The notes under the pieces: generated by a model
Seen by the model: only the letters and a program-made list of their open reading frames with translations
What the model was told of the DNA's origin: nothing
Databases searched by the model: none
Position numbers and translations under genes: made by a program
Shown: positions 1-25,693 of the stretch, piece after piece
How the letters are laid out: every line of letters starts with the position of its first letter
Numbering within the stretch: position 1 is the stretch's first letter
Virus record (IMG/VR): IMGVR_UViG_3300003690_000060
Location: 1-28,688 of that record
DNA length: 28,688 bases
Strand: one strand, 5' to 3'
From: a virus

Positions 1-496
1 CTTTCATGATTTTAATAATCTTTTGTGTATAATACACGTCTTCTGCATAAATTGCAAGTGTTTTTACTAAAACGTCTGAATTTAGTTGATTTCCTACCAC
101 CTGTTTATCACGCTCCTCTCTAAAATTTTTATAGTGATGACTTTCATTTAATAAATCAATATAGTAGGATATGGATTCGCATTTGGTTTCAAAGATCCTA
201 AGCCCCCAGCTCACATTAGGTTTATTAATGGGCTTTATTTGGTCATCAGCTGGATCAAATGTTCGAATCCCCATTAAATTGTTGCCTTCAATGGCGAATC
301 GTGACTTCCCCCATTTTGATTCATGAATGGCTTGAGAAATAATTATCTCTAGTGGAACTCTTTCAAATTCGTTACTGAGAGAATTAAGGTGCAATGAACA
401 TTGGGTGACATCTTCTATAAATTCTCTATTATTAGTATAGTCCATAACCGGATTAAAGCTCCCACAAATAATTAATGTAGCACATAACCAACTCAT
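1..496 (-). CDS. Glucosaminidase (GH73/Bax-like) peptidoglycan hydrolase, C-terminus cut by window edge
   Basis: An open frame of 165 codons starts at ATG 496-494 and runs off the left edge, so the C-terminus is missing. It shares one base with the polymerase stop (TAATG), which suggests coupled translation as the last visible gene of the operon. Residues 53-80 carry the GH73/Bax-type core: SQAIHES with candidate catalytic Glu59, then WGKSRFA and NNLMGIRTF. A later SYYIDLLN...YKNFREER segment also resembles Bax-like proteins. The family cleaves N-acetylglucosaminyl bonds in peptidoglycan. The first 13 residues are hydrophobic and end in Cys-Gly-Ser, so they could be a short signal or lipoprotein-like sequence, but the lipobox is poor. 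Likely role: lysis or local wall opening. This is a second wall hydrolase besides the GH24 lysozyme near 12 kb. The family call is fairly secure; the cellular role is inferred. Confidence 0.75.
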   Translation of the reverse strand, partial: MSWLCATLIICGSFNPVMDYTNNREFIEDVTQCSLHLNSLSNEFERVPLEIIISQAIHESKWGKSRFAIEGNNLMGIRTFDPADDQIKPINKPNVSWGLRIFETKCESISYYIDLLNESHHYKNFREERDKQVVGNQLNSDVLVKTLAIYAEDVYYTQKIIKIMK

Positions 497-2346
497 TATC
501 CACCCCATGTTTCATTAACTTCAATATCTACTTTGGATGGAACTTCTAGTTCCACGCAATTCTCCATAATTTCCTTAACTTTATCTGCCTCTTTTTCATT
601 TTTAACAGAACAATCCAATTCATCATGAACTTGTATTAGAGGAATAATTCCTAATTGTTCGTGCACATCCACCATGGCTTTCTTAGTTTGGTCAGCAGCT
701 GATCCTTGGATAAGTCGATTAAGGGCCTTATAAGTATGGGCTCTCTTGATTGCCATTCCATATTCGGTCTGGGCTTGATTGAGTGGCAATGCCTTGTGAA
801 CTCCCCACGATGTAGGCTCCCATAGATCAAATCTACATTTTCTTCCCATCAAAGTTCTAATAACTCCTTTGTTATTAGCACGATTCATCACAACTTCCAA
901 CATACCTTTCATAAATGGCACTTTTGCATGGAAATCCTGTAACATTAACTTAGCTTCCTGGGGTTCCATGTCTAGTTCCCTAGCTAATTTATGATATCCC
1001 ATACCATACATTACCCCAAGTCCTATTGTTTTAGCTAGACTTCTTTCCACCCCTGCCATTTCAGCAGTTTGCTTATGAAAGTCTAAGTCTTTTTGTTGAT
1101 ACGCTTCTTGAACTTCTTTAGAACCCGGTTGGTCCACGAGCCTCGCGAAATGGGTGAGGAGCCGTGGTTCTTGCTGTGAGTAGTCCGCTTTAAGCCAGTA
1201 TTCTCCACTCTCCGGGATGAAAAGTTTCCTGATGTCCTTCGCGAATTGACCCCGGTTTGGAATCTGCTGTAAATTAGGATGATTATAACTAAAGCGACCA
1301 GTGATAGTACCTCCACTGTCAGACCTAATTTGGTTAATGTGAGCATGTATTCTTCCTGTGTTATGATGATTAAGTAGACCTCCTAGAAAAGTTCCTCGCA
1401 ACTTATTCAATTCCCTCGCCTGCATAAGTAATCTAGGCAACTCATGGGGGTGATCCGTCAAGAACATCTTAGTGAAGGATGGTGCGTCTGTCTTCTGTGT
1501 TCTCTCGTATGGAAGATTCAATGCATCAAATGCTTGAGCAATGGAGGCAGCAGCCCATATCTCCACTTTTAATCCTGTAAGGTCCTTTATCCTTTTGAGT
1601 AGTTTCTTTTCCTTGTTTCTGAACTTTTCATTGAGACGTATGCATCCATCCACGTTGAAACGAACTCCTGTCTTAGTCATTCTAAAAATAACATTGATTA
1701 AGCGGCACTCCATGTCGTATACTGTTTGTAAATTATCCTTGGTGATTTCCCATGACAATTTTTCATGAAGCTTTAATGTTAATCTCGCATCTTTTTCAGC
1801 ATATTCCCCGACAAATTGTGCCGGCAATTTGTACATTTCATTCTTCGGGTCTACCCCAAATGCATCTGCTGCTTCACGTAATTTTATTTCATTTTTTCGT
1901 TCCCCTAGGTATTCAGATGAGATACTATTTAAGGTATACGAAAACCTATTTTCATTAATGAGAGCCATTGCGACCATGGTGTCATGCACTCTGCCATTGA
2001 CTTCTATTCCTAGTGTTGATAGCCATCCAATGTCATACTGCGCGTTATGAAACACTTTATCAATTGAACCGTCTTCACATATGGACTTAATATATTTAAG
2101 TACTTGTTTTCTGTCCATATTCCCCCCACCTTCGTGCGCTATGGGATAATACCCTGTAAATCCGTTGGAGGAGACTGCAATACCAATCACCTGTCCTCTC
2201 TTGGTGGGCCATCCTGGCCCTTCCTTTATCAGTTCCGGGTCGCATGTCTCCAGATCAATAGAAACCTTGTTATGTGTGCTCAGATCTGGAAAGGTTGTTG
2301 GAGCTACCCACTCTGAATTAACTTCCTTGAACATATCTCTCATCAT
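496..2346 (-). CDS. Family A DNA polymerase with 3'-5' exonuclease
   Basis: Replicative DNA polymerase of the PolA/T7 gp5 family, 616 residues, without a 5'-nuclease domain. The N-terminal proofreading exonuclease has Exo I (Asp31, Glu33 in DLE), Exo II (Asn101, Asp105 in HNAQYD) and Exo III (Tyr182, Asp186 in YAEKD). The polymerase half has motif A (DYSQQE, Asp388), motif B (RSLAKTIGLGVMYG, residues 435-448) and motif C (HDE, residues 574-576). Lys439 and Tyr447 match E. coli Pol I Lys758 and Tyr766. The residue at the Phe762 position is Leu443, the Leu762 class reported as common in marine viral PolA. The start overlaps the preceding DUF3310 gene by 4 nt (ATGA); the second codon is also ATG. 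It lies in one operon with the primase, helicase and ssDNA-binding protein. All catalytic residues are intact, so it should be active. Confidence 0.97.
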   Translation of the reverse strand: MMRDMFKEVNSEWVAPTTFPDLSTHNKVSIDLETCDPELIKEGPGWPTKRGQVIGIAVSSNGFTGYYPIAHEGGGNMDRKQVLKYIKSICEDGSIDKVFHNAQYDIGWLSTLGIEVNGRVHDTMVAMALINENRFSYTLNSISSEYLGERKNEIKLREAADAFGVDPKNEMYKLPAQFVGEYAEKDARLTLKLHEKLSWEITKDNLQTVYDMECRLINVIFRMTKTGVRFNVDGCIRLNEKFRNKEKKLLKRIKDLTGLKVEIWAAASIAQAFDALNLPYERTQKTDAPSFTKMFLTDHPHELPRLLMQARELNKLRGTFLGGLLNHHNTGRIHAHINQIRSDSGGTITGRFSYNHPNLQQIPNRGQFAKDIRKLFIPESGEYWLKADYSQQEPRLLTHFARLVDQPGSKEVQEAYQQKDLDFHKQTAEMAGVERSLAKTIGLGVMYGMGYHKLARELDMEPQEAKLMLQDFHAKVPFMKGMLEVVMNRANNKGVIRTLMGRKCRFDLWEPTSWGVHKALPLNQAQTEYGMAIKRAHTYKALNRLIQGSAADQTKKAMVDVHEQLGIIPLIQVHDELDCSVKNEKEADKVKEIMENCVELEVPSKVDIEVNETWGG

Positions 2347-2621
2347 TTATTATTCTCCTGGTTTAATTGTTTAATGTGCTCCCACGTTTCTTTTCCTCTT
2401 CTTGTCCCTTCGTCATCTGGGTATAGGTCCTCAAGAAGAAGTTCAGCATAGTGGATAACTTTCTCCACGTCCTGTCTTCCCCCCTTCATGCTATGCCTGG
2501 TTATATACTTGACAATGTTTCCTTCATACCATCCAAGTTTATTCTTGACGATATAATGACTGGGTTGAATTTCCATTCTTTTATAATGATCTCCTCCTAT
2601 TTGTTTCTTATGTGCACTCAT
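2343..2621 (-). CDS. DUF3310-family small phage protein
   Basis: A 92-residue protein with the DUF3310 pattern: GGDHYKRMEIQPSHYI near the N-terminus, then GNIVKYITRH, GGRQDVEKVIHYAELLLE and a charged tail. DUF3310 proteins are common in tailed phages and often sit among nucleotide-metabolism or replication genes. A relation to the T7 gp1.7 nucleotide kinase has been suggested for similar proteins, but no kinase motif can be seen here. The ATG overlaps the helicase stop by 4 nt, and its own stop overlaps the polymerase ATG by 4 nt, so it is almost certainly translated with both. The biochemical function is unknown. Confidence 0.8.
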   Translation of the reverse strand: MSAHKKQIGGDHYKRMEIQPSHYIVKNKLGWYEGNIVKYITRHSMKGGRQDVEKVIHYAELLLEDLYPDDEGTRRGKETWEHIKQLNQENNK

Positions 2622-4129
2622 AGTACAAACCCTCCATCTCTCTGGGGCTGAACAATGTGTAAACTTTCCTTGGTTCTCGTCAATCCTACATAAAATACAC
2701 GTGACTCATCATCAGGGTCATATTCCATATTTTCTCTCGCCTTCCTTGAAAGATCCGTCAAGAGCATTACATTCTGAGCCTCTCCTCCCTTTGCACCGTG
2801 TATGGTGCTTAGGCTTATTAATGGTTTATCAAATGAGTCTGTTCCCTGTCTGTTCTCAATGGCTCTTAGATATTCCTTATCCTTGGATCCTACCTTATCA
2901 AAAGCCACATCCCACGGTCGTCCTGAAACCAGCAATCCATGGTGCATTACAAGTGATTCTATACTATATTTATTTTTGTCATCAGCAGTCCTTAATTGCT
3001 TATGACCGTGCTCAACTCCTATTTTAGTGGACATATAAGAATAGATATCTTTAATAGACTGAACCTCCAACTCCTCTCCTTTTTCCAGCATATTCCAGGA
3101 TTTAACTGCATCCATTAACTTTTGGGAAATGGGGAGTCTATTATTTCGTTGGTACAAGAGTCCTTGGTTCCTGATGTCACGTTCCACTTCATCCAGCAAG
3201 TAGTTGGTGCGACCCATAATGAGCCATTCTCCTTTTCTGATATCAACCCCTTCTGGATATGCGTGGTATTTAACTTCCCCCATGTAATCTCTTCCTTGCC
3301 ATTCTTTTGCTCTACGATGGCGCACCCTTCCTATGATGCTATTGGCCAGTTTATGAACCACTCGTGGACATCTGTATGATTTTTTTAATATATCAACATT
3401 CGTTGCTGGCATTGTAATGAAATGCTCTACGTCTGCACCAGCCCACCGGAAAATAGCTTGATCATCATCTCCACTGATATATACTGTATGTGATTTTTTC
3501 CATGCACGTTTGGCCACTTCCCATTGCAATTTACTTAAATCCTGTGCTTCATCTATGAATACCACTTCCAATTTTGGAATTGGGCCTGAAGCCAGAAACA
3601 ATTGAAGCATATCAGTAAAGTCAAATACTTCTCTCTTGTGTTTATACTCCTCCAATGAAAGGCTTGCTCTCAATAAGGCGTGCCATGACACATCCAAATT
3701 ATATTCATTATAGTATTTGTCCAGCTCCATGTTCTTCATTCTGGCCAAATTGATTTCATTTATCAGCCTGTTGTCGGTGGTAATGGCTCCTCCGAAGTCT
3801 TCCCCTTCAGTCACTGCGCCTAAATCCATTCCATAGTTCAATGAAAATTCTTTATAATTACTTCTTGACATTACTTCGGAAGTGGTCATTCCCAATTGAT
3901 TAAAAGCAAATGAATGTAAAGTCCTAAAGTAGGGCAGTTGCTTATCCTCTAACTTAAATTTTATCTTGGCTCTTTCCTTGGCTTCATTGGCAGCTTTTTT
4001 AGTGAAAGCAAAAAATCCAATGCGGTCAGGAGGCGTTCCTCGAGATAGCTCCTTTTCCACAAGTTTTAAAAGATTATGTGTTTTTCCTGTGCCAGGAGGT
4101 CCTAGTATTATATTAATTTTTTGTGGCAT
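2618..4129 (-). CDS. SF1 DNA helicase, UvrD/Rep-like
   Basis: ATP-driven DNA helicase of superfamily 1, 503 residues. Visible motifs: Walker A GPPGTGKT (10-17), Ia-like FFAFTKKAANEA (39-50), LHSFAFNQLG (71-80), Walker B/motif II IDEAQD (192-197), motif III SGDDDQAIFRWAG (219-231), motif IV KSYRCP (Arg253), motif V STIHGAKGGEAQNV (about 441-454) and motif VI VGLTRTKESL (Arg485). It is shorter than UvrD (about 720 aa) and closer in size to compact phage helicases. It starts inside the end of the HNH gene (17 nt overlap) and overlaps DUF3310 by 4 nt. No DnaB/T7 gp4-type helicase is visible in the window, so this may be the fork helicase, although it could instead serve in repair or recombination. 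Confidence 0.93.
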   Translation of the reverse strand: MPQKINIILGPPGTGKTHNLLKLVEKELSRGTPPDRIGFFAFTKKAANEAKERAKIKFKLEDKQLPYFRTLHSFAFNQLGMTTSEVMSRSNYKEFSLNYGMDLGAVTEGEDFGGAITTDNRLINEINLARMKNMELDKYYNEYNLDVSWHALLRASLSLEEYKHKREVFDFTDMLQLFLASGPIPKLEVVFIDEAQDLSKLQWEVAKRAWKKSHTVYISGDDDQAIFRWAGADVEHFITMPATNVDILKKSYRCPRVVHKLANSIIGRVRHRRAKEWQGRDYMGEVKYHAYPEGVDIRKGEWLIMGRTNYLLDEVERDIRNQGLLYQRNNRLPISQKLMDAVKSWNMLEKGEELEVQSIKDIYSYMSTKIGVEHGHKQLRTADDKNKYSIESLVMHHGLLVSGRPWDVAFDKVGSKDKEYLRAIENRQGTDSFDKPLISLSTIHGAKGGEAQNVMLLTDLSRKARENMEYDPDDESRVFYVGLTRTKESLHIVQPQRDGGFVL

Positions 4130-4565
4130 TTCCCATTCCGTGGTGTTCTATTCTATGACAATTAGAGCATAGGACAATACATTTCTTCCATTCTTTTTTT
4201 ATTTTTTTTAGTTGTGTGTAACTAGTTCTAAACCAGTGGGATACATTTTTAGTTTTTTTATTAACATGATGAAAATCTAACGCGAATGGACTTTTATTAT
4301 ATCCGCACTTCTGGCATCCTCGAGATGATTTTTCATTATTAACAATTTCTTGTATCATATTATAGAGAAATTTTTTACGCTCCTTATTATACTCTTTCCT
4401 CCATTTTTCATATGATTCGGTGGTTCTCCATATTTCCTTGCAGAATCCTGTTTTCTTTCTAAGAACACTTGTTTGATAGCCATCAAAAATCATACCATCT
4501 TCTCTAATAAATCCGCCATGAAATAATTTTCCTGTGGTAGGGTTTAGTCTTTTAGAATGGGACAT
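4113..4565 (-). CDS. HNH endonuclease with zinc-binding Cys pairs
   Basis: A 150-residue HNH nuclease. The C-terminal half carries CQKC (Cys84, Cys87), the core DFHHVN (97-102) and CSNCHRIEH (133-141), giving two CxxC pairs for zinc around a beta-beta-alpha metal site. The N-terminal half has the NPTTGKLFHGGFIREDG pattern seen in free-standing phage HNH proteins. It overlaps the AEP primase by 14 nt upstream and the helicase by 17 nt downstream, so it is wedged between two replication genes without breaking either. It may be a homing-type selfish nuclease or a DNA-processing enzyme recruited by the phage. The target site cannot be predicted. It is Lys- and Asn-rich and its DNA is visibly AT-rich. 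Confidence 0.88.
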   Translation of the reverse strand: MSHSKRLNPTTGKLFHGGFIREDGMIFDGYQTSVLRKKTGFCKEIWRTTESYEKWRKEYNKERKKFLYNMIQEIVNNEKSSRGCQKCGYNKSPFALDFHHVNKKTKNVSHWFRTSYTQLKKIKKEWKKCIVLCSNCHRIEHHGMGNATKN

Positions 4566-6042
4566 TGTCCATCTCCTTTATGTCAAAGTCAGAATCCTGT
4601 TGCTGGTATGCAGGAATACACCATGTATTCACTCCTCTACCTTTAATCTTAAAAAAATGAGATTTCCCACCCAACGACCTAAGGCGAGTAACTATCTGAC
4701 CGGTATGATAATGTGTAAATTTATTTCTAGTTAAATAGTCCTGTAGATCCTTTAGTCTGAAATAAGTTTTTCCCTCTTCCGTCCAAGGCTTGTGTAATAT
4801 TAATTCATCACGATTCATGGCCTGGGCACGATCAGTACAAAACTCCTGGAGAAAAGCCTCAAACTGACCAGCCACAGACCCATCACTCGACACCTCAATT
4901 TCAATTGCGTTGTCCATTAAGGATTGGATTATCTCCTGCCATAGTGACTCTTTCATCTTAGGAGGCATCTTCCTCAATACATCCATACATTTCCTTTGAA
5001 ATTTCTGTTGTACTTGAATCTCCTCCGTGGATAATTCTAAACGGTAATCATTAACGTCCAGGAACCATACACGTGGATCGGATAATTGAACTGTTAACGC
5101 ACCAAATTCTGTTATTGCACCGCCATTACCAATTCCATACTTACGTGTTCTACATACTTTAGCATTGCAATAAGAATTTATTGGTGGTTCCTTACATCTA
5201 TAATTATAATCTTTTTTCTCCAGTTGTTTTTGAATTAGTACCACTTCCTGTGCTGATAGAGGTGGATTCATAAAACTCTGATTATGATTTTCCAGTAAAG
5301 ACTTCCAGTTATCAGGGTCAAATTTACGGAGGTACACTCCTATGTTAAAGAGACCATTATTTCTGGTTCCTTCAGGAAATCCTTGTGAACACAGTGCTTG
5401 AAGGCAAGGTGGTCCGTCAGCTATTACTTTATTATCTACAGGAATTCCGATCTTCTCTATGTCAGTAACTACATATTTATTATATAGACTTATGAACTCA
5501 TTCAAGGTGGCAGCAGTGCCATCATCTTTGTATGCATATCTTGTTGTTTTATTATGATTATAATATGGTAGATTTAAAAAATTACCCAAGTCGCCTTTCT
5601 CTATGAGTATGCTTGATTGTTTTGGAAATACTTCCACCGAGGAATGTCCTAGACTAGACGAAATCTCTCTTAACTTATGACGAATTAATTTTGCTGAAAC
5701 AGGTTGTTTTAAGAATATAAATACATGTAATCCCCCACTCTTTGATCTACAAGGAACAAGGGGAAGCTGAAGTTTTCTTATATTATGAATTATTTTTTTG
5801 TAATTAATAGGATAAGTATCAATATCAATACAGCCCCACTTGGCAGTATTGTCAGCCCTAATAGGAATGATCCCCAAAGAAGGGCCTTCCCCATCAAGGT
5901 GCGCCTTCCATAATTCTTCTGTAATAAGTTTTTTGACAATGTATGATTTACCCTCCTGCTTACCATCAGCACGTTTCCCTTCGGATCTATGCTGACCATA
6001 AGCTATATCTAAACCTTCAAATATCAATTTGAACTCTTCCAC
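4552..6042 (-). CDS. Archaeo-eukaryotic (AEP/TOTE-type) primase with winged-helix-like C-terminus
   Basis: Primase of the archaeo-eukaryotic superfamily, 496 residues. The N-terminal catalytic domain has the DxD motif in WGCIDID (Asp73, Asp75), the SGGLHVFIF motif with His106, and VEVFPKQ (Glu137 the likely third metal ligand), matching primase domains of TOTE conflict systems and related phage proteins. The middle part has GTRNNGLFNIGVYLRK (225-240) and Cys213, Cys283, Cys292 and Cys297, a possible zinc or Fe-S cluster. The C-terminal third resembles a winged helix. The last residues, EMDNVPF, resemble an SSB acidic tail. GTG was chosen as start because GGAGG lies about 6 nt upstream. It presumably makes primers for the family A polymerase encoded downstream. 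No TOPRIM/DnaG primase is seen in the window. The fold is secure; the partners are inferred. Confidence 0.88.
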   Translation of the reverse strand: MEEFKLIFEGLDIAYGQHRSEGKRADGKQEGKSYIVKKLITEELWKAHLDGEGPSLGIIPIRADNTAKWGCIDIDTYPINYKKIIHNIRKLQLPLVPCRSKSGGLHVFIFLKQPVSAKLIRHKLREISSSLGHSSVEVFPKQSSILIEKGDLGNFLNLPYYNHNKTTRYAYKDDGTAATLNEFISLYNKYVVTDIEKIGIPVDNKVIADGPPCLQALCSQGFPEGTRNNGLFNIGVYLRKFDPDNWKSLLENHNQSFMNPPLSAQEVVLIQKQLEKKDYNYRCKEPPINSYCNAKVCRTRKYGIGNGGAITEFGALTVQLSDPRVWFLDVNDYRLELSTEEIQVQQKFQRKCMDVLRKMPPKMKESLWQEIIQSLMDNAIEIEVSSDGSVAGQFEAFLQEFCTDRAQAMNRDELILHKPWTEEGKTYFRLKDLQDYLTRNKFTHYHTGQIVTRLRSLGGKSHFFKIKGRGVNTWCIPAYQQQDSDFDIKEMDNVPF

Positions 6043-6068
6043 TAAACCTCCAGTTTATGAAAACTAAC

Positions 6069-6875
6069 CTAAAACGGTATGTCTTCGTTACTTTCTTTTG
6101 AGTTAGTTTGTGGAGCCTCTTTCACAGGCTCCCCCTCAATTAAAGGTTTAGCTTCTACTTCTCCTCTAGAGACGGTAATTGAAAATGATTTAGATTCGTT
6201 ATATATATCTACATCTTCCACTTGTCCAACTTTTTCCACTTGGTAACCAAACCAACTGCCACGATCATTAGACTCACTAACTGTAGTGAGTTTATAAATC
6301 ATTGCATAAGTTGGAGGTGTGAAACTTCCAGATGGGCCTTTGACCTTCTGTGAAAGCATCAAGCTATTCCATCTTCTACTCTTTTTTAATTGAGTAGATG
6401 TCATGCTAATAACTGCTTGAGACCAATTACCATCAGATCCTTGAGCCATCACGTAGTGATAAGCTGTAGTTGCTACATAGTTACCACTTGGTAACACATC
6501 TTTAAATGTTAATTGATCACGCTTAGTTTGGGACAAGATCCCACTGTCAGCGCTGTGAGACGCCACGAATCCTCCACCTTGTTCACGAGGTTTCCATTCC
6601 ACGTAGCGTAGTTGGTAAAGTACAGGAATCACGTTTAATGAATCACTAACTTCCTGGGTAACAGTATTATAAAACTGTCCCACTTTTGCTCCTTCAACAT
6701 ATTCCGCTTTGGACTGATTAAGTTGTGGGCTGTTGGATTGTAATATATTAATGTAAGGGATTGCAGTGTCTCTTGACAAGTCAAGATTGCCGAATCCACT
6801 TGCATCCTTGGAATCACTAGCAAGAATTGCTAGATCTACTTTTGCCGCTTTAGCGACTGTTTTAGTTTGTGCCAT
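6069..6875 (-). CDS. Putative phage ssDNA-binding protein with SSB-like C-terminal tail
   Basis: A 268-residue protein whose last residues are NEDIPF, nearly identical to the bacterial SSB tip (DDDIPF) that docks helicases, primases and repair enzymes. The tail follows a low-complexity, acidic Pro/Ser/Asn linker from about residue 240, as in SSB. The core (about 30-230) is rich in beta-prone stretches and aromatic residues. It has the phage-type AIPYINILQSNSPQ start and the WFGYQVEKVGQV segment seen in phage proteins next to replication genes. No clear OB-fold motif could be assigned by eye. ATG at 6875 is preceded by AAGGAG. It lies directly upstream of the primase in the operon. ssDNA binding is inferred from the tail, size and position. 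Confidence 0.65.
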   Translation of the reverse strand: MAQTKTVAKAAKVDLAILASDSKDASGFGNLDLSRDTAIPYINILQSNSPQLNQSKAEYVEGAKVGQFYNTVTQEVSDSLNVIPVLYQLRYVEWKPREQGGGFVASHSADSGILSQTKRDQLTFKDVLPSGNYVATTAYHYVMAQGSDGNWSQAVISMTSTQLKKSRRWNSLMLSQKVKGPSGSFTPPTYAMIYKLTTVSESNDRGSWFGYQVEKVGQVEDVDIYNESKSFSITVSRGEVEAKPLIEGEPVKEAPQTNSKESNEDIPF

Positions 6876-6889
6876 ATGGCCTTTCTCCT

Positions 6890-7438
6890 TTAATCTTTAA
6901 TCGTTGTTTTTTGTCCTACGTAAGCTCCCAACAAATCCATAGGTAATTTATTACCTGCTTCATGCTGCTCACGTATAAATGCGCGAAGGGTGGAAGGTTC
7001 AACCCATTCACGAGTGTCGGAATCATATCCTAATTCTGTTAATTTGGATACTAATCCATTAGCTTTGTGATCTTCATCCTTCCCAAAGCTGCAAGAGACT
7101 TGGTTCTTTATTAAATCACCAAATCCATTGTCTCTTAACCAAGCATAAGCTGCTCTTTTCTTTTCAGCTTTAACAGAAGCACCATAATAATTTGTAACTT
7201 TTAAGTGTCTTCCGTCTGCCAGTTTTAATTCTGATAAACCTACTTCTGCAAAAAGATTAGGTAAAACATTTTCTGATAAATGTCTTTTATAATCTTTTTT
7301 CTTTTTTAAATCATCTTCTATTAGCTGTATCTCTTTATCAGTGTCAGCAATATCGTTTGCTACTGCACCAATCTTACCCATGTTATCTTGGGATGTGGAG
7401 CCAGCATCTCGTTCCATTTGACTAATTAAACTATTCAT
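6890..7438 (-). CDS. Conserved phage protein with N-terminal coiled coil, function unknown
   Basis: 182 residues. The first ~55 residues form a likely coiled coil rich in Asp, Glu and Lys (DTDKEIQLIEDDLKKKKDYK). The rest is a compact mixed domain with LKLADGRHLKVTNYYGASVKAEKK and a WLRDNGFGDLIK motif. Proteins like this recur beside ssDNA-binding genes in marine phage genomes, but no enzymatic motif can be seen. It starts at ATG 7438, one base after the stop of the preceding small gene, and ends 14 nt before the ssDNA-binding ATG. By position it is a replication accessory or structural-maintenance protein; that is inference only. Confidence 0.6.
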   Translation of the reverse strand: MNSLISQMERDAGSTSQDNMGKIGAVANDIADTDKEIQLIEDDLKKKKDYKRHLSENVLPNLFAEVGLSELKLADGRHLKVTNYYGASVKAEKKRAAYAWLRDNGFGDLIKNQVSCSFGKDEDHKANGLVSKLTELGYDSDTREWVEPSTLRAFIREQHEAGNKLPMDLLGAYVGQKTTIKD

Positions 7439-7439
7439 T

Positions 7440-7745
7440 CTATCCTCTTAAATCTATTTCTATATCGTAATATTTTTTTTCATCTCGGTCCCACTTCAGG
7501 ACTTTGAACTTGCCATTATTATTTTTTGCTGCAATGGCACCAGCAACCGCTATTATAGCAGGATCTCCCATTAAAAGCAAGTAATCATTATCATTAAAAT
7601 CCTTTAATTCATGATTAATCTTATGGGACATGGGTCCTGCTGATAAAACTATCTGTCTATTGTCCGGAAGAACAACTTTTAAATCACCAAACTTCTCTGC
7701 CGATCTTATGTTTCTTCCCATTTCTTGTAAAACGTAGACTGTCAT
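7440..7745 (-). CDS. Small conserved phage protein, first gene of the leftward operon
   Basis: 101 residues, no recognisable domain. It contains LPDNRQIVLSAGPMSHK, a hydrophobic YLLLMGDPAIIAVAGAIAAKN stretch (about 55-75) and a Lys/Asp-rich C-terminus. The hydrophobic part is Ala/Gly-rich and may be a buried core rather than a membrane span. It is the first gene after the leftward promoter at 7794-7766; the predicted mRNA leader is only about 14 nt and has no clear Shine-Dalgarno. Being first in the operon and next to the divergent switch, it could be an early regulatory protein, but no DNA-binding motif is visible. Confidence 0.6.
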   Translation of the reverse strand: MTVYVLQEMGRNIRSAEKFGDLKVVLPDNRQIVLSAGPMSHKINHELKDFNDNDYLLLMGDPAIIAVAGAIAAKNNNGKFKVLKWDRDEKKYYDIEIDLRG

Positions 7746-7756
7746 ATTTTTATTTC

Positions 7757-7785
7757 TTGACTCGTATTATATACTATGCTATAAT
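7757..7785 (+). promoter_or_regulatory. Rightward sigma70-type promoter for the SNF2-like helicase
   Basis: TTGACT (7757-7762), 17-nt spacer, TATAAT (7780-7785): 11 of 12 consensus positions with ideal spacing. The expected transcription start is about 7792, 16 nt before ATG 7808. The -10 box overlaps the alternative ATG at 7784, which therefore cannot be the main start. It interlocks with the leftward promoter on the other strand. Confidence 0.85.
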
Positions 7786-7794
7786 GTTTGTCAA
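7766..7794 (-). promoter_or_regulatory. Leftward consensus sigma70-type promoter for the replication operon
   Basis: On the minus strand TTGACA (7794-7789), 17-nt spacer, TATAAT (7771-7766): all 12 consensus bases with ideal spacing. The expected start is about 7759, 14 nt before ATG 7745. Its -10 box lies in the spacer of the rightward promoter and vice versa, so polymerase should not be able to occupy both at once. Confidence 0.88.
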
Positions 7795-7807
7795 GTTAGA
7801 ATTTAGA

Positions 7808-9244
7808 ATGTACAAATTTAAAACGAAGCCATATGAGCATCAACGTGATGCATTAAAAAAATGCTGGAATAAGGAAGCTTTTGCTGTCTTTGCCGAGATG
7901 GGGACAGGTAAGACCAAGATAGCGTTGGACAATGCATGCATATTATATAATAAAGGAAAGATTGATCGTGTTCTCGTAATAGCTCCTAAAGGAGCTTATA
8001 TGACATGGGTAGAACAGGAAATTCCAATTCATGTTCCAGACTATATAGAAAAGAAAGTACTCGCCTGGAAACCATCCACGAGCCAAAAATATAAAGCACA
8101 GTTAAAAGATATAATGAATATTCAAGATTATAAATTAAAAATTATGGTCATGAATGTGGAAGCTTTCTCCACCAAGAAGGGAACTAATTTTGCCAAGCTT
8201 TTTTTAATTGGAAGATCAATGATGATAGTGGATGAGAGCACAACCATCAAGAATCCAAAAGCAAAAAGGACAAAAGCAATATTAGATTTAAGAAAAGAAA
8301 CAAAATACAGAAGAATATTAACAGGATCTCCAGTAACACAATCTCCAATGGATTTATGGGCACAGATGGATTTCCTTGATCCGGAAATACTAGGACAATC
8401 CAGCTACTATGCATTTAGGACCCGGTACGCCGTGGTCATAGAGGCGACGGCAGCTGGGGGAACTCATCGCTACCAGAAAATTGTTAAGTTCAGGAACCTC
8501 AAGGAACTAGGGAAACTTGTATCACCACATTCATACCGCATATTGAAGAAAGACTGCCTGGACCTACCAGACAAGGTATATATTAAAAGAGAGATAGAAT
8601 TGACCAGCGAACAGCAGGAAGCCTATCGCGACATGAAAGCGGACGCCATGACTACATTAAAGGGACAGTCAATGACAGCCCTTAATGTATTGACGCAGTT
8701 AATAAGACTGCACCAAATAACATGTGGGCACATGAAAACGGATGCCGGACACACCATAGATCTTAACAATAACAGAATGGATGAATTACATCAAATTTTA
8801 GGGGAGACCACTGGAAAGGTAATCATATGGGCTAATTATATTCATGACATTGAAAGAATTGAAGCCAGCATATCCCTTGACTTTGGAGCTGACTCATGCT
8901 GCACGTATTATGGAGCAACACCTACTGATAAGAGACAGGAATGCATACGTCAATTCCAGGATCCTAATTCCAAGGTAAGATTTTTTATTGGCAATACACA
9001 AACTGGAGGATATGGGATAACCCTTACAGAAGCCAGCACGGTGATCTACTATTCAAATAATTATGATCTGGAGAAGAGGATACAGTCAGAGGACCGCGCC
9101 CATCGCATAGGACAGAAAAACAAGGTACTATACATTGATTTAATGGCAAAAGGGACTGTAGACCAAAAGATCATACAGTCCCTTAAGAACAAGGTTAACA
9201 TCGCCAAAGAAATCAGTGGCGAGGAACTTTCTACTTGGATTTAA
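7808..9244 (+). CDS. SNF2-like SF2 DNA helicase/translocase
   Basis: The only plus-strand gene, 478 residues from ATG 7808. That start is chosen because upstream TTG 7757 and ATG 7784 lie within the promoter, and because MYKFKTKPYEHQ begins the conserved region. Motifs: Q-like YEHQRDAL (9-16), Walker A EMGTGKTK (30-37), Ia VIAPKGAYMTW (57-67), motif II VDESTTIKNP (141-150), motif III LTGSPVTQSP (171-180), motif IV region GKVIIWANY, motif V GGYGITLTEA, and motif VI QSEDRAHRIGQ (426-436). SNF2-family proteins are ATP-driven dsDNA translocases. Motif II reads DEST instead of DEAH/DEAD, as in some phage members. No nuclease or DNA-recognition domain is fused. It may remodel protein-DNA complexes or help replication or recombination. 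The gene overlaps hsp20 tail to tail by 14 nt. Confidence 0.92.
   Translation: MYKFKTKPYEHQRDALKKCWNKEAFAVFAEMGTGKTKIALDNACILYNKGKIDRVLVIAPKGAYMTWVEQEIPIHVPDYIEKKVLAWKPSTSQKYKAQLKDIMNIQDYKLKIMVMNVEAFSTKKGTNFAKLFLIGRSMMIVDESTTIKNPKAKRTKAILDLRKETKYRRILTGSPVTQSPMDLWAQMDFLDPEILGQSSYYAFRTRYAVVIEATAAGGTHRYQKIVKFRNLKELGKLVSPHSYRILKKDCLDLPDKVYIKREIELTSEQQEAYRDMKADAMTTLKGQSMTALNVLTQLIRLHQITCGHMKTDAGHTIDLNNNRMDELHQILGETTGKVIIWANYIHDIERIEASISLDFGADSCCTYYGATPTDKRQECIRQFQDPNSKVRFFIGNTQTGGYGITLTEASTVIYYSNNYDLEKRIQSEDRAHRIGQKNKVLYIDLMAKGTVDQKIIQSLKNKVNIAKEISGEELSTWI
9147..9184 (-). terminator. Candidate intrinsic terminator for leftward transcripts, inside the SNF2 gene
   Basis: A perfect 11-bp inverted repeat (9150-9160 and 9174-9184, arm AAGGGACTGTA) with a 13-nt loop. 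Read on the minus strand it is followed by TTTT. It lies about 50 nt past the hsp20 stop, so it could end hsp20 and other leftward transcripts before they reach the divergent promoters. On the plus strand it is followed by TTAAG, a weaker signal. The T-run is short and the repeat is also coding sequence. Confidence 0.42.
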
Positions 9245-9668
9245 TTTCTATTTGTTTTGGTTTTTCGGATTCAGGTATATCCCTGTGATAGGAAACCTTT
9301 AAAAGACCATCCTTCAGCTCCGCTCCATTAACTTTAATATGTTCATGAAGTCTGAAGATTTTTCGGAAAGTTCTATCTGCTATTCCTTTGTGATAAAAAT
9401 CCTCTGATTTCTTTTCTTCCTTACACCCATAAACGTGTAAAGTCTTATCTTTGACCTCAACTTTCAAATCCTTTTCAGTGAACCCAGCGACAGCAAATTC
9501 AATGACACCTTTGTCATCTTTTTCTTTCATATTGTAGGGGGGGTAAGTGTTAAGAACTTGAGTTGGGTGAAAATAACCAGAATCAGCTAAGTTTTCAAAA
9601 TGGTTAAATATTTGATCAAATCCTATTGACATAGGTTTGAGCACATCTAAAAGAATATTCTCTCTCAT
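9231..9668 (-). CDS. Small heat-shock protein Hsp20 (alpha-crystallin family)
   Basis: An ATP-independent holdase chaperone of the IbpA/Hsp20 type, 145 residues. The alpha-crystallin domain spans about 45-140: YNMKEKDD, IEFAVAGFTEKDLKVEV, LHVYG, FRKIFRLHEHIKV and the typical ELKDGLLKVSY. The C-terminus has KPKQIEIKSK, an I-x-I-type anchor for oligomer assembly. ATG 9668 was chosen over an upstream in-frame TTG (9689) because AAGGAG sits 6 nt before it. The gene has its own consensus-like promoter in the end of the nuclease gene, so it can be expressed apart from its neighbours. Hsp20 genes are known in marine cyanophages and other marine phages, where they probably protect folding of phage or host proteins during infection. 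Confidence 0.93.
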   Translation of the reverse strand: MRENILLDVLKPMSIGFDQIFNHFENLADSGYFHPTQVLNTYPPYNMKEKDDKGVIEFAVAGFTEKDLKVEVKDKTLHVYGCKEEKKSEDFYHKGIADRTFRKIFRLHEHIKVNGAELKDGLLKVSYHRDIPESEKPKQIEIKSK

Positions 9669-9722
9669 ATTTTTCTCCTTATTAAGCAAGATTAGTAGGA
9701 CCCATTATGGCATCCTATGTGT

Positions 9723-9752
9723 ATTATATAATAAGTGATAGGTACTTGTCAA
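9723..9752 (-). promoter_or_regulatory. Sigma70-type promoter for hsp20
   Basis: Minus-strand TTGACA (9752-9747), 18-nt spacer, TATAAT (9728-9723). Both boxes match the consensus; the spacer is one base longer than ideal. It overlaps the nuclease stop codon (9726-9724). The expected start is about 9716, giving a leader of about 48 nt that includes AAGGAG before hsp20 ATG 9668. Confidence 0.78.
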
Positions 9753-25177: not shown

Positions 25178-25693
25178 CTAGTCTTCCGATCCTGGACCCA
25201 CAAAGATCCATGTGTTGGTTGCAGAGTCATCCACTGCATTCCATATAATCAAGTTTGGAGTTCCTACTCCGAAAGAAGCCTGAACTCCGTCAGGACTAAC
25301 AGTCGCTGTTCCTGTAACGGTAACGGTTCCCATTCCAAAAGTAGCCTGCACTCCGCTGACATCATACTTTGATATCAGTACAACATTGCCTACGGAGAAC
25401 GCCGCCTGCACTCCGCTTGGAGAGACAACTGCCGTTCCTGTCACGGTGACAGTGCCCATTCCAAAAGTGATTTGCACTCCAGAAGGACTGACGGTCGCTG
25501 TTCCCGTAACGGTGACAGATCCTACTCCAAACGCCGCCTGCACTCCGGCAGGACTGACGGTGGCAGTTCCCGTAACGGTGGCAGTTCCTAATGAAAAGGT
25601 TGCCTGTACACCACTAAAGGTTACAACCGTGTGCGTCGGAACCCCTGAAAAAGGGAACCGCGCGAAACTAAAAGCCCCAAACGTAGAAGCCAT
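25178..25693 (-). CDS. Tandem-repeat beta protein, putative tail fibre component
   Basis: 171 residues, of which 28-145 consist of six copies of a 20-22 residue repeat, GVQATFxxGTxTVTGTATVSPx (start residues 28, 50, 72, 94, 114, 136). The fourth copy is shorter and diverged (VVLISKYDVS). Val/Thr alternation suggests stacked beta strands, as in fibre shafts. Related GVxATG/VTVTGxA repeats are widespread in marine phage structural proteins. The C-terminal TNTWIFVGPGSED may be an attachment or cap sequence. The ATG follows immediately after the TAG of the upstream reading frame. Likely a spacer or shaft protein of the tail. Confidence 0.68.
   Translation of the reverse strand: MASTFGAFSFARFPFSGVPTHTVVTFSGVQATFSLGTATVTGTATVSPAGVQAAFGVGSVTVTGTATVSPSGVQITFGMGTVTVTGTAVVSPSGVQAAFSVGNVVLISKYDVSGVQATFGMGTVTVTGTATVSPDGVQASFGVGTPNLIIWNAVDDSATNTWIFVGPGSED
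25259..25612 (-). repeat. In-frame tandem repeat, about 66 bp, six units
   Basis: Coding repeat within the gene at 25178-25693. Units begin at 25612, 25546, 25480, 25414, 25354 and 25288 (minus strand); five intervals are 66, 66, 66, 60 and 66 bp and the last unit is partial. Nucleotide similarity is high between some units (repeated GTAACGGTGACAG-like blocks on the plus strand), so copy number could change by slippage or recombination. Confidence 0.85.

Follow-up and report, generated by a model that had tools for sequence, protein, structure and literature searches.

Closely packed divergent promoters have been described in several bacterial systems. In Tn10 tetA/tetR (Bertrand et al. 1983, as summarised in PMC11686294) and in the pLS20 Pc/Pr pair, as described in PMC4207663, opposed sigma70-type promoters occupy one polymerase footprint and serve two divergent genes; both systems contain operators and a regulator, which is encoded by one of the genes, and the two pLS20 promoters differ greatly in strength. 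According to Bendtsen et al., as cited in PMC4207663, an overlapping-promoter switch needs unequal basal strengths and a regulator that acts differently on each promoter. A related class is formed by the bidirectional promoters of Warman, Grainger and colleagues (PMC10268837, PMC12825309), in which pseudo-symmetric DNA is read both ways and polymerase binds one way at a time; their starts lie 7 to 25 bp, usually 18 bp, apart and they share a -10. At five E. coli bidirectional promoters, polymerases did not compete unless one side was activated, the promoters being too weak otherwise (PMC12825309).

Here, an arrangement of this kind was analysed in a marine phage, IMG/VR virus record IMGVR_UViG_3300003690_000060, of which positions 1 to 28,688, a stretch of 28,688 bases, are referred to as the window. 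All genes of the window except one are leftward: the late genes extend leftward from the right end to about 9.7 kb and are followed by hsp20, and the replication operon lies beyond the gene of an SNF2-family helicase (Table 1), which meets hsp20 tail-to-tail with an overlap of 14 bp. The helicase is closest to that of phage 023Pt_psg01 (56% identity) and shares 50% and 43% identity with those of the isolates HTVC027P and HTVC023P, which places the window near the HTVC023P-type pelagiphages; the virus is best read as pelagiphage-type (HTVC023P-like), with a presumed host. At the nucleotide level, GenBank phages gave nothing beyond one short helicase match, and Rfam detected no known RNA element in the whole window. 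A leftward gene at 25178-25693 encodes a protein of near-identical repeats of the type GVQAxFGxGTVTVTGTATVSP.

The 62-bp gap between the start codons of the helicase gene (ATG 7808, plus strand) and the first leftward gene (ATG 7745, minus strand) contains two complete opposed promoters, which overlap fully and are thus overlapping divergent promoters. The rightward promoter, P-right, matches the consensus at 11 of 12 positions and has an extended -10 (TG at 7777-7778, TATGC-TATAAT), whereas the leftward promoter, P-left, matches 12 of 12 without a TGn; judged by the consensus, the two are nearly equal. Each -10 lies inside the spacer of the opposite promoter, and the two -10 boxes, at 7766-7771 and at 7780-7785, do not overlap, with 8 bp between them. 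The hexamers, spacers and coordinates given by the initial annotation, as well as the nesting of the -10 boxes, were confirmed. Its exact symmetry about 7775.5 is true of the geometry; however, this adds no evidence, as opposed promoters with equal spacers are automatically symmetric, and mirror symmetry as a sign of design was rejected. Beyond the hexamers, only one of seven half-positions in the window is symmetric. Transcription is predicted to start at around 7792 (plus strand, P-right) and 7759 (minus strand, P-left), 33 bp apart, and the spacing to the start codons suggests that each promoter directs the gene on its own side.

Table 1. Features at the divergent junction and around hsp20 (positions in the window; strand "." for the element as a whole)
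Feature	Position	Strand	Remark
Remainder of the leftward operon	496..7438	-	gp33-like, gp34-like, AEP-type primase, HNH endonuclease, UvrD-type helicase, DUF3310 protein, DNA polymerase A
First leftward gene, 101 aa, Pam3 gp32-like (PF23992, phrog_5888)	7440..7745	-	modelled alpha/beta fold without helix-turn-helix
Predicted leader of the replication-operon message, 14 nt	7746..7759	-	CAAGAAATAAAAAT; ends before ATG 7745
P-right, rightward promoter	7757..7785	+	TTGACT 7757-7762, 17-bp spacer, TATAAT 7780-7785
Interlocked element, 38 bp	7757..7794	.	TTGnnn-3-ATTATA-8-TATAAT-3-nnnCAA
P-left, leftward promoter	7766..7794	-	TTGACA 7794-7789, 17-bp spacer, TATAAT 7771-7766
Predicted leader of the helicase message, 16 nt	7792..7807	+	CAAGTTAGAATTTAGA; ends before ATG 7808
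SNF2-family DNA helicase, 478 aa	7808..9244	+	only rightward gene in the window
hsp20	9231..9689	-	
One-way hsp20 promoter	9723..9752	-	TTGACA-18-TATAAT; upstream of hsp20; internal yardstick for phage promoter grammar

The element resembles Tn10 tet and pLS20 in that two opposed promoters in one footprint face two divergent genes; it differs from both in having no recognisable regulator as first gene, and from pLS20 in that both promoters are near consensus. As in the bidirectional class of Warman et al., pseudo-symmetric DNA would be read in both directions by a polymerase that binds one way at a time; however, the predicted start distance falls outside the range of that class and no -10 is shared. 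The element is best read as a known kind, overlapping divergent promoters, unusual in its dual near-consensus strength, its balance and its conservation. What appears to be distinctive is that an adjacent regulator is absent and that the element is retained as a unit through gene exchange.

A chance origin of the interlocked pair was rejected: the best pair reached 17 to 20 of 24 consensus positions in 150 sequences generated from the window with a first-order Markov model and at most 19 in an earlier test with 60 shuffles, whereas the real pair reaches 23. Promoters that agree with the consensus at 11 or 12 of 12 positions number just three in the whole window, namely P-right, P-left and the promoter of hsp20, and all three lie directly upstream of genes they could serve. 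The hsp20 promoter, which is kept as CTTGACT-18-TATAAT in many relatives, has the same grammar as the interlocked pair. In the minus-strand stretch 9660-9752, it is followed by a conserved leader, AGGATGCCATAATGGGTCCT, before the Shine-Dalgarno, an arrangement kept in many relatives; this leader is hairpin-like and contains a tiny open reading frame (MGPTNLA).

Two helicase searches of IMG/VR yielded 160 loci, in which the conservation of the 38 bp between diverged flanks, proposed as a check by the initial annotation, could be followed. The element is present at the divergent junction in all loci with enough upstream sequence, i.e. in 79 loci of the main group (window included) and 78 of the psg01 group, 157 in total; four loci without it are cut short or have no upstream sequence. 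It is thereby common to two helicase clades that are about 56% identical. Of the 42 distinct main-group elements, 34 keep a distance of exactly 8 bp between both TATAAT/TAGAAT boxes, flanked on the outside by TTG and CAA. The element stays where the left gene has been replaced (clusters 3, 5, 6 and 7) and where a gene has been inserted on the right (clusters 2, 4 and 8): its position is unchanged in 13 loci with a different first leftward gene, and inserted rightward genes have the element upstream of them, which puts it about 460-520 bp from the helicase gene in the main-group cases (13 loci). In the main arrangement, 11 nt separate the element from the left start codon and 13-14 nt from the right one, and distances of 11-14 nt on both sides are found in most main-group loci. 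Among 60 representatives, information content is 1.6-1.7 bits per site in the -10 boxes and 1.2-1.45 bits in the -35 boxes, the latter figure being diluted by a one-base shift in 20 of the 60, compared with 0.59 bits at other spacer positions and 0.98 bits at third codon positions of the helicase gene. Thus, the -10 and -35 boxes are conserved, and the bases between them drift like synonymous sites. Taken together, the element appears to be a real shared launch point for replication genes.

The predicted leaders have the lengths of about 14-16 nt claimed earlier and contain no GGAGG; the accompanying claim that they have no Shine-Dalgarno needs qualification, as both resemble AGAAA. The 3' tail of alphaproteobacterial 16S rRNA is usually UUUCU, which pairs with AGAAA. 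The motif is exact in the leftward leader and reads AGAAATAAGA in the rightward leaders of most relatives. A replacement left gene of the L010 type starts 19-24 nt from the element instead of 11 nt, and the added leader contains a Shine-Dalgarno-like AAGGA.

It is probable that the element consists of two strong, opposed, interlocked host sigma70 promoters which share one footprint and split initiation, part of it going to the replication operon and part to the gene of the SNF2 helicase. Host sigma70 RNA polymerase would read both promoters; rightward initiation would yield the helicase message, in some relatives with an inserted gene first, and leftward initiation the message of the replication operon. 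As polymerase would occupy the same stretch of DNA at either promoter, each binding event would serve one direction and block the other, and the element would act as a compact splitter dividing initiation between two DNA-metabolism transcripts without a regulator. The earlier statement that polymerase cannot bind both promoters at once is thus borne out as far as the coincident footprints are concerned, from which exclusion would follow by geometry. Steric competition might be of no consequence in vivo here, given how weak the five E. coli bidirectional promoters are; the near-consensus hexamers, however, make competition likely at this element.

According to an alternative explanation, two ordinary promoters are merely packed into the 62-bp gap and are interlocked only since indels would break both, so that exclusion has no consequence. 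Phage gaps are short, all central bases belong to both promoters, which would lock the geometry and is a plausible additional reason for its being frozen, and the E. coli bidirectional promoters compete little at basal activity. However, occupancy should be high with both promoters near consensus, and the two promoters are never separated in more than 150 loci, including those with inserted genes. We regard compact packing without functional interaction as less likely than not. In a further reading, which we regard as unlikely, the interlock itself is selected: as a regulator-free splitter, exclusion between the two near-consensus promoters would determine the proportion of helicase to replisome transcripts during infection and curb its noise, and the element would be kept as a portable unit amid gene exchange.

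The initial annotation also proposed that the same dyad could be an operator for a repressor. In a wider form of this idea, the inverted TTGAC...GTCAA half-sites would bind a dimer or tetramer of a phage or host protein, which would shut off or redirect both promoters later in infection. The half-site centres are 31-32 bp apart, corresponding to three helical turns. Many psg01-group elements have a poor leftward -10 (e.g. L215), and the outer TTGACA...TGTCAA nevertheless shows hardly any variation, with a length of 37 bp in 42 of the 44 distinct sequences; such a spacing exceeds what bare promoters would need and speaks most strongly for a further protein binding here. In the main group, however, variation in one outer repeat is largely independent of that in the other, and palindromy is limited to the promoter elements: in the test of per-position symmetry against column composition, positions 6-8 and 15 reached 0.17-0.24, compared with 0.21-0.40 expected. 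The palindromic CATATG centre of many relatives amounts to two overlapping back-to-back TRTGn extended -10s. Furthermore, the -35 is reduced to three of five TTGAC matches in 13 of 41 half-promoters with a TGn but in none of 11 without (Mann-Whitney p=0.014; lineages not independent), and weak -35 boxes (TTG only) are confined to sites beside a TGn-extended -10, a pattern that points to sigma70 grammar, with the same reservation on lineages, and that an operator would not require. The psg01 group shows the same trade-off: its -10 boxes depart from TATAAT while both -35 boxes are fixed at TTGAC, nearly all TTGACA, as found with a search pattern that was itself TTGAC...GTCAA. The symmetry test lends the operator no support. 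The element is adjoined by no regulator gene, although similar 38-bp elements lie between an HxlR-type regulator gene (family named by eye) and its neighbour in Treponema. A repressor operator is accordingly a rather improbable explanation, and the 38-bp pattern is best read as promoter grammar.

Judged by their hexamers, spacers of 16-18 bp and compensation by extended -10s, the promoters look like those read by host sigma70. As alphaproteobacterial sigma70 promoters mostly lack the -7T (PMC8407463), the TATATA and TATAAG boxes of some clades can be accommodated; the non-TATAAT clades (nine of the loci and others) were reinterpreted on this basis instead of as promoter loss, the lack of -7T being reported for alphaproteobacteria generally.

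A true transcriptional switch between two programmes, the candidate role put forward by the initial annotation, in which polymerase competition would commit the phage to helicase-first or replication-first expression, is highly improbable: footprints coincide and strengthening one side of the E. coli bidirectional promoters represses the other (PMC12825309), but what such a switch needs (PMC4207663) is not apparent, as the strengths look near equal by consensus, neither adjacent gene (the SNF2 helicase on the right, the Pam3 gp32-like protein without a helix-turn-helix on the left) is a recognisable regulator with opposite effects, neither product is known to exert feedback, and DNA metabolism is served on both sides, with the helicase and the replication operon in the same core set (PMC9599517).

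The Pam3 gp32-like protein had no match in a sequence search of the PDB. Among solved structures, its good model (pLDDT 90) comes closest mainly to chains of SAVED/CARF ring nucleases and of Cap5 (best E 1.5e-3, TM 0.58). On this structural likeness, the protein might weakly be considered a candidate counter-defence protein made from a strong promoter.

Among deeper relatives, the same junction of HTVC027P contains TTGACT-17-TATATA and TTTACT-18-TATAAT with overlapping -10s and predicted starts 21 bp apart, and thus looks like the bidirectional class of Warman et al.; 023Pt_psg01 has TTGACA on both sides, and inspection of the junction in HTVC023P and DSL-LC04 revealed no clear element. The 38-bp geometry is thus probably younger than overlapping divergent transcription at this junction, which is not universal. 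The initial annotation held that related genomes which keep both genes but lose the hexamers or their symmetric spacing would speak against it; 157 loci retain the element, whereas -10 boxes drift in some clades, HTVC027P has a different pair and none is recognisable in HTVC023P. In keeping with the use of host polymerase, no RNA polymerase gene is reported for HTVC027P, in contrast to HTVC022P (PMC12753301). Start sites are not reported in the main text on HTVC027P RNA-seq, and the word "promoter" is never used in the main texts of two HTVC023P/HTVC027P papers. The GenBank records of HTVC023P-type phages open at the divergent junction (three cases), which leaves the element at the record end, where it is easily missed. 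An unbiased search for a phage promoter consensus by way of TTGACA in three GenBank relatives showed no enrichment across the genomes (36, 34 and 25 found, 49, 49 and 53 expected). Only one set stands out, in HTVC027P; it consists of intergenic promoter-like sites, TTGACA...TATAGGAT, that have a G at -7, which fits the lack of -7T in alphaproteobacterial promoters.

Scans with a gapped pattern that allowed 55 geometries gave 18 distinct sequences in viral contigs and 29 in bacterial genomes, of which 12 and five, respectively, have the 17/17 geometry; the arrangement thus recurs outside this phage group. Treponema, Ruminococcus and Herbivorax have the same 38-bp 17/17 geometry, TTGAC-4-ATTATA-8-TATAAT-4-GTCAA. 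The genes at these bacterial copies are unrelated to those of the phage. The Treponema copies lie between divergent genes, as in the phage, and are regulator-linked, with an HxlR-like regulator gene and its divergent neighbour on either side in five loci. In other IMG/VR contigs of 4-117 kb, a symmetric extended -10 core, ATTATAnCATATGnTATAAT, occurs without -35 boxes between divergent genes, often including hsp20 (11 loci, one of which, L122, has no GenBank phage match). Eight loci in prophage-like contigs contain a near-perfect palindrome around GTTTATTATATCATATGATATAATAAAC, with genes on both sides at distances of about 170-230 bp.

With this element, a transcription hub is defined, and its start sites predicted, for an abundant group of ocean phages. 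The element also offers a natural case of two near-consensus promoters that fully share one footprint, at which polymerase competition should show without an activator, whereas in E. coli bidirectional promoters it was seen only when one side was activated or strengthened. Moreover, the approximately 86 natural variants (42 in the main group and 44 in the psg01 group) differ in -35, extended -10 and -7, and would make trade-offs between promoter elements testable in alphaproteobacterial hosts.
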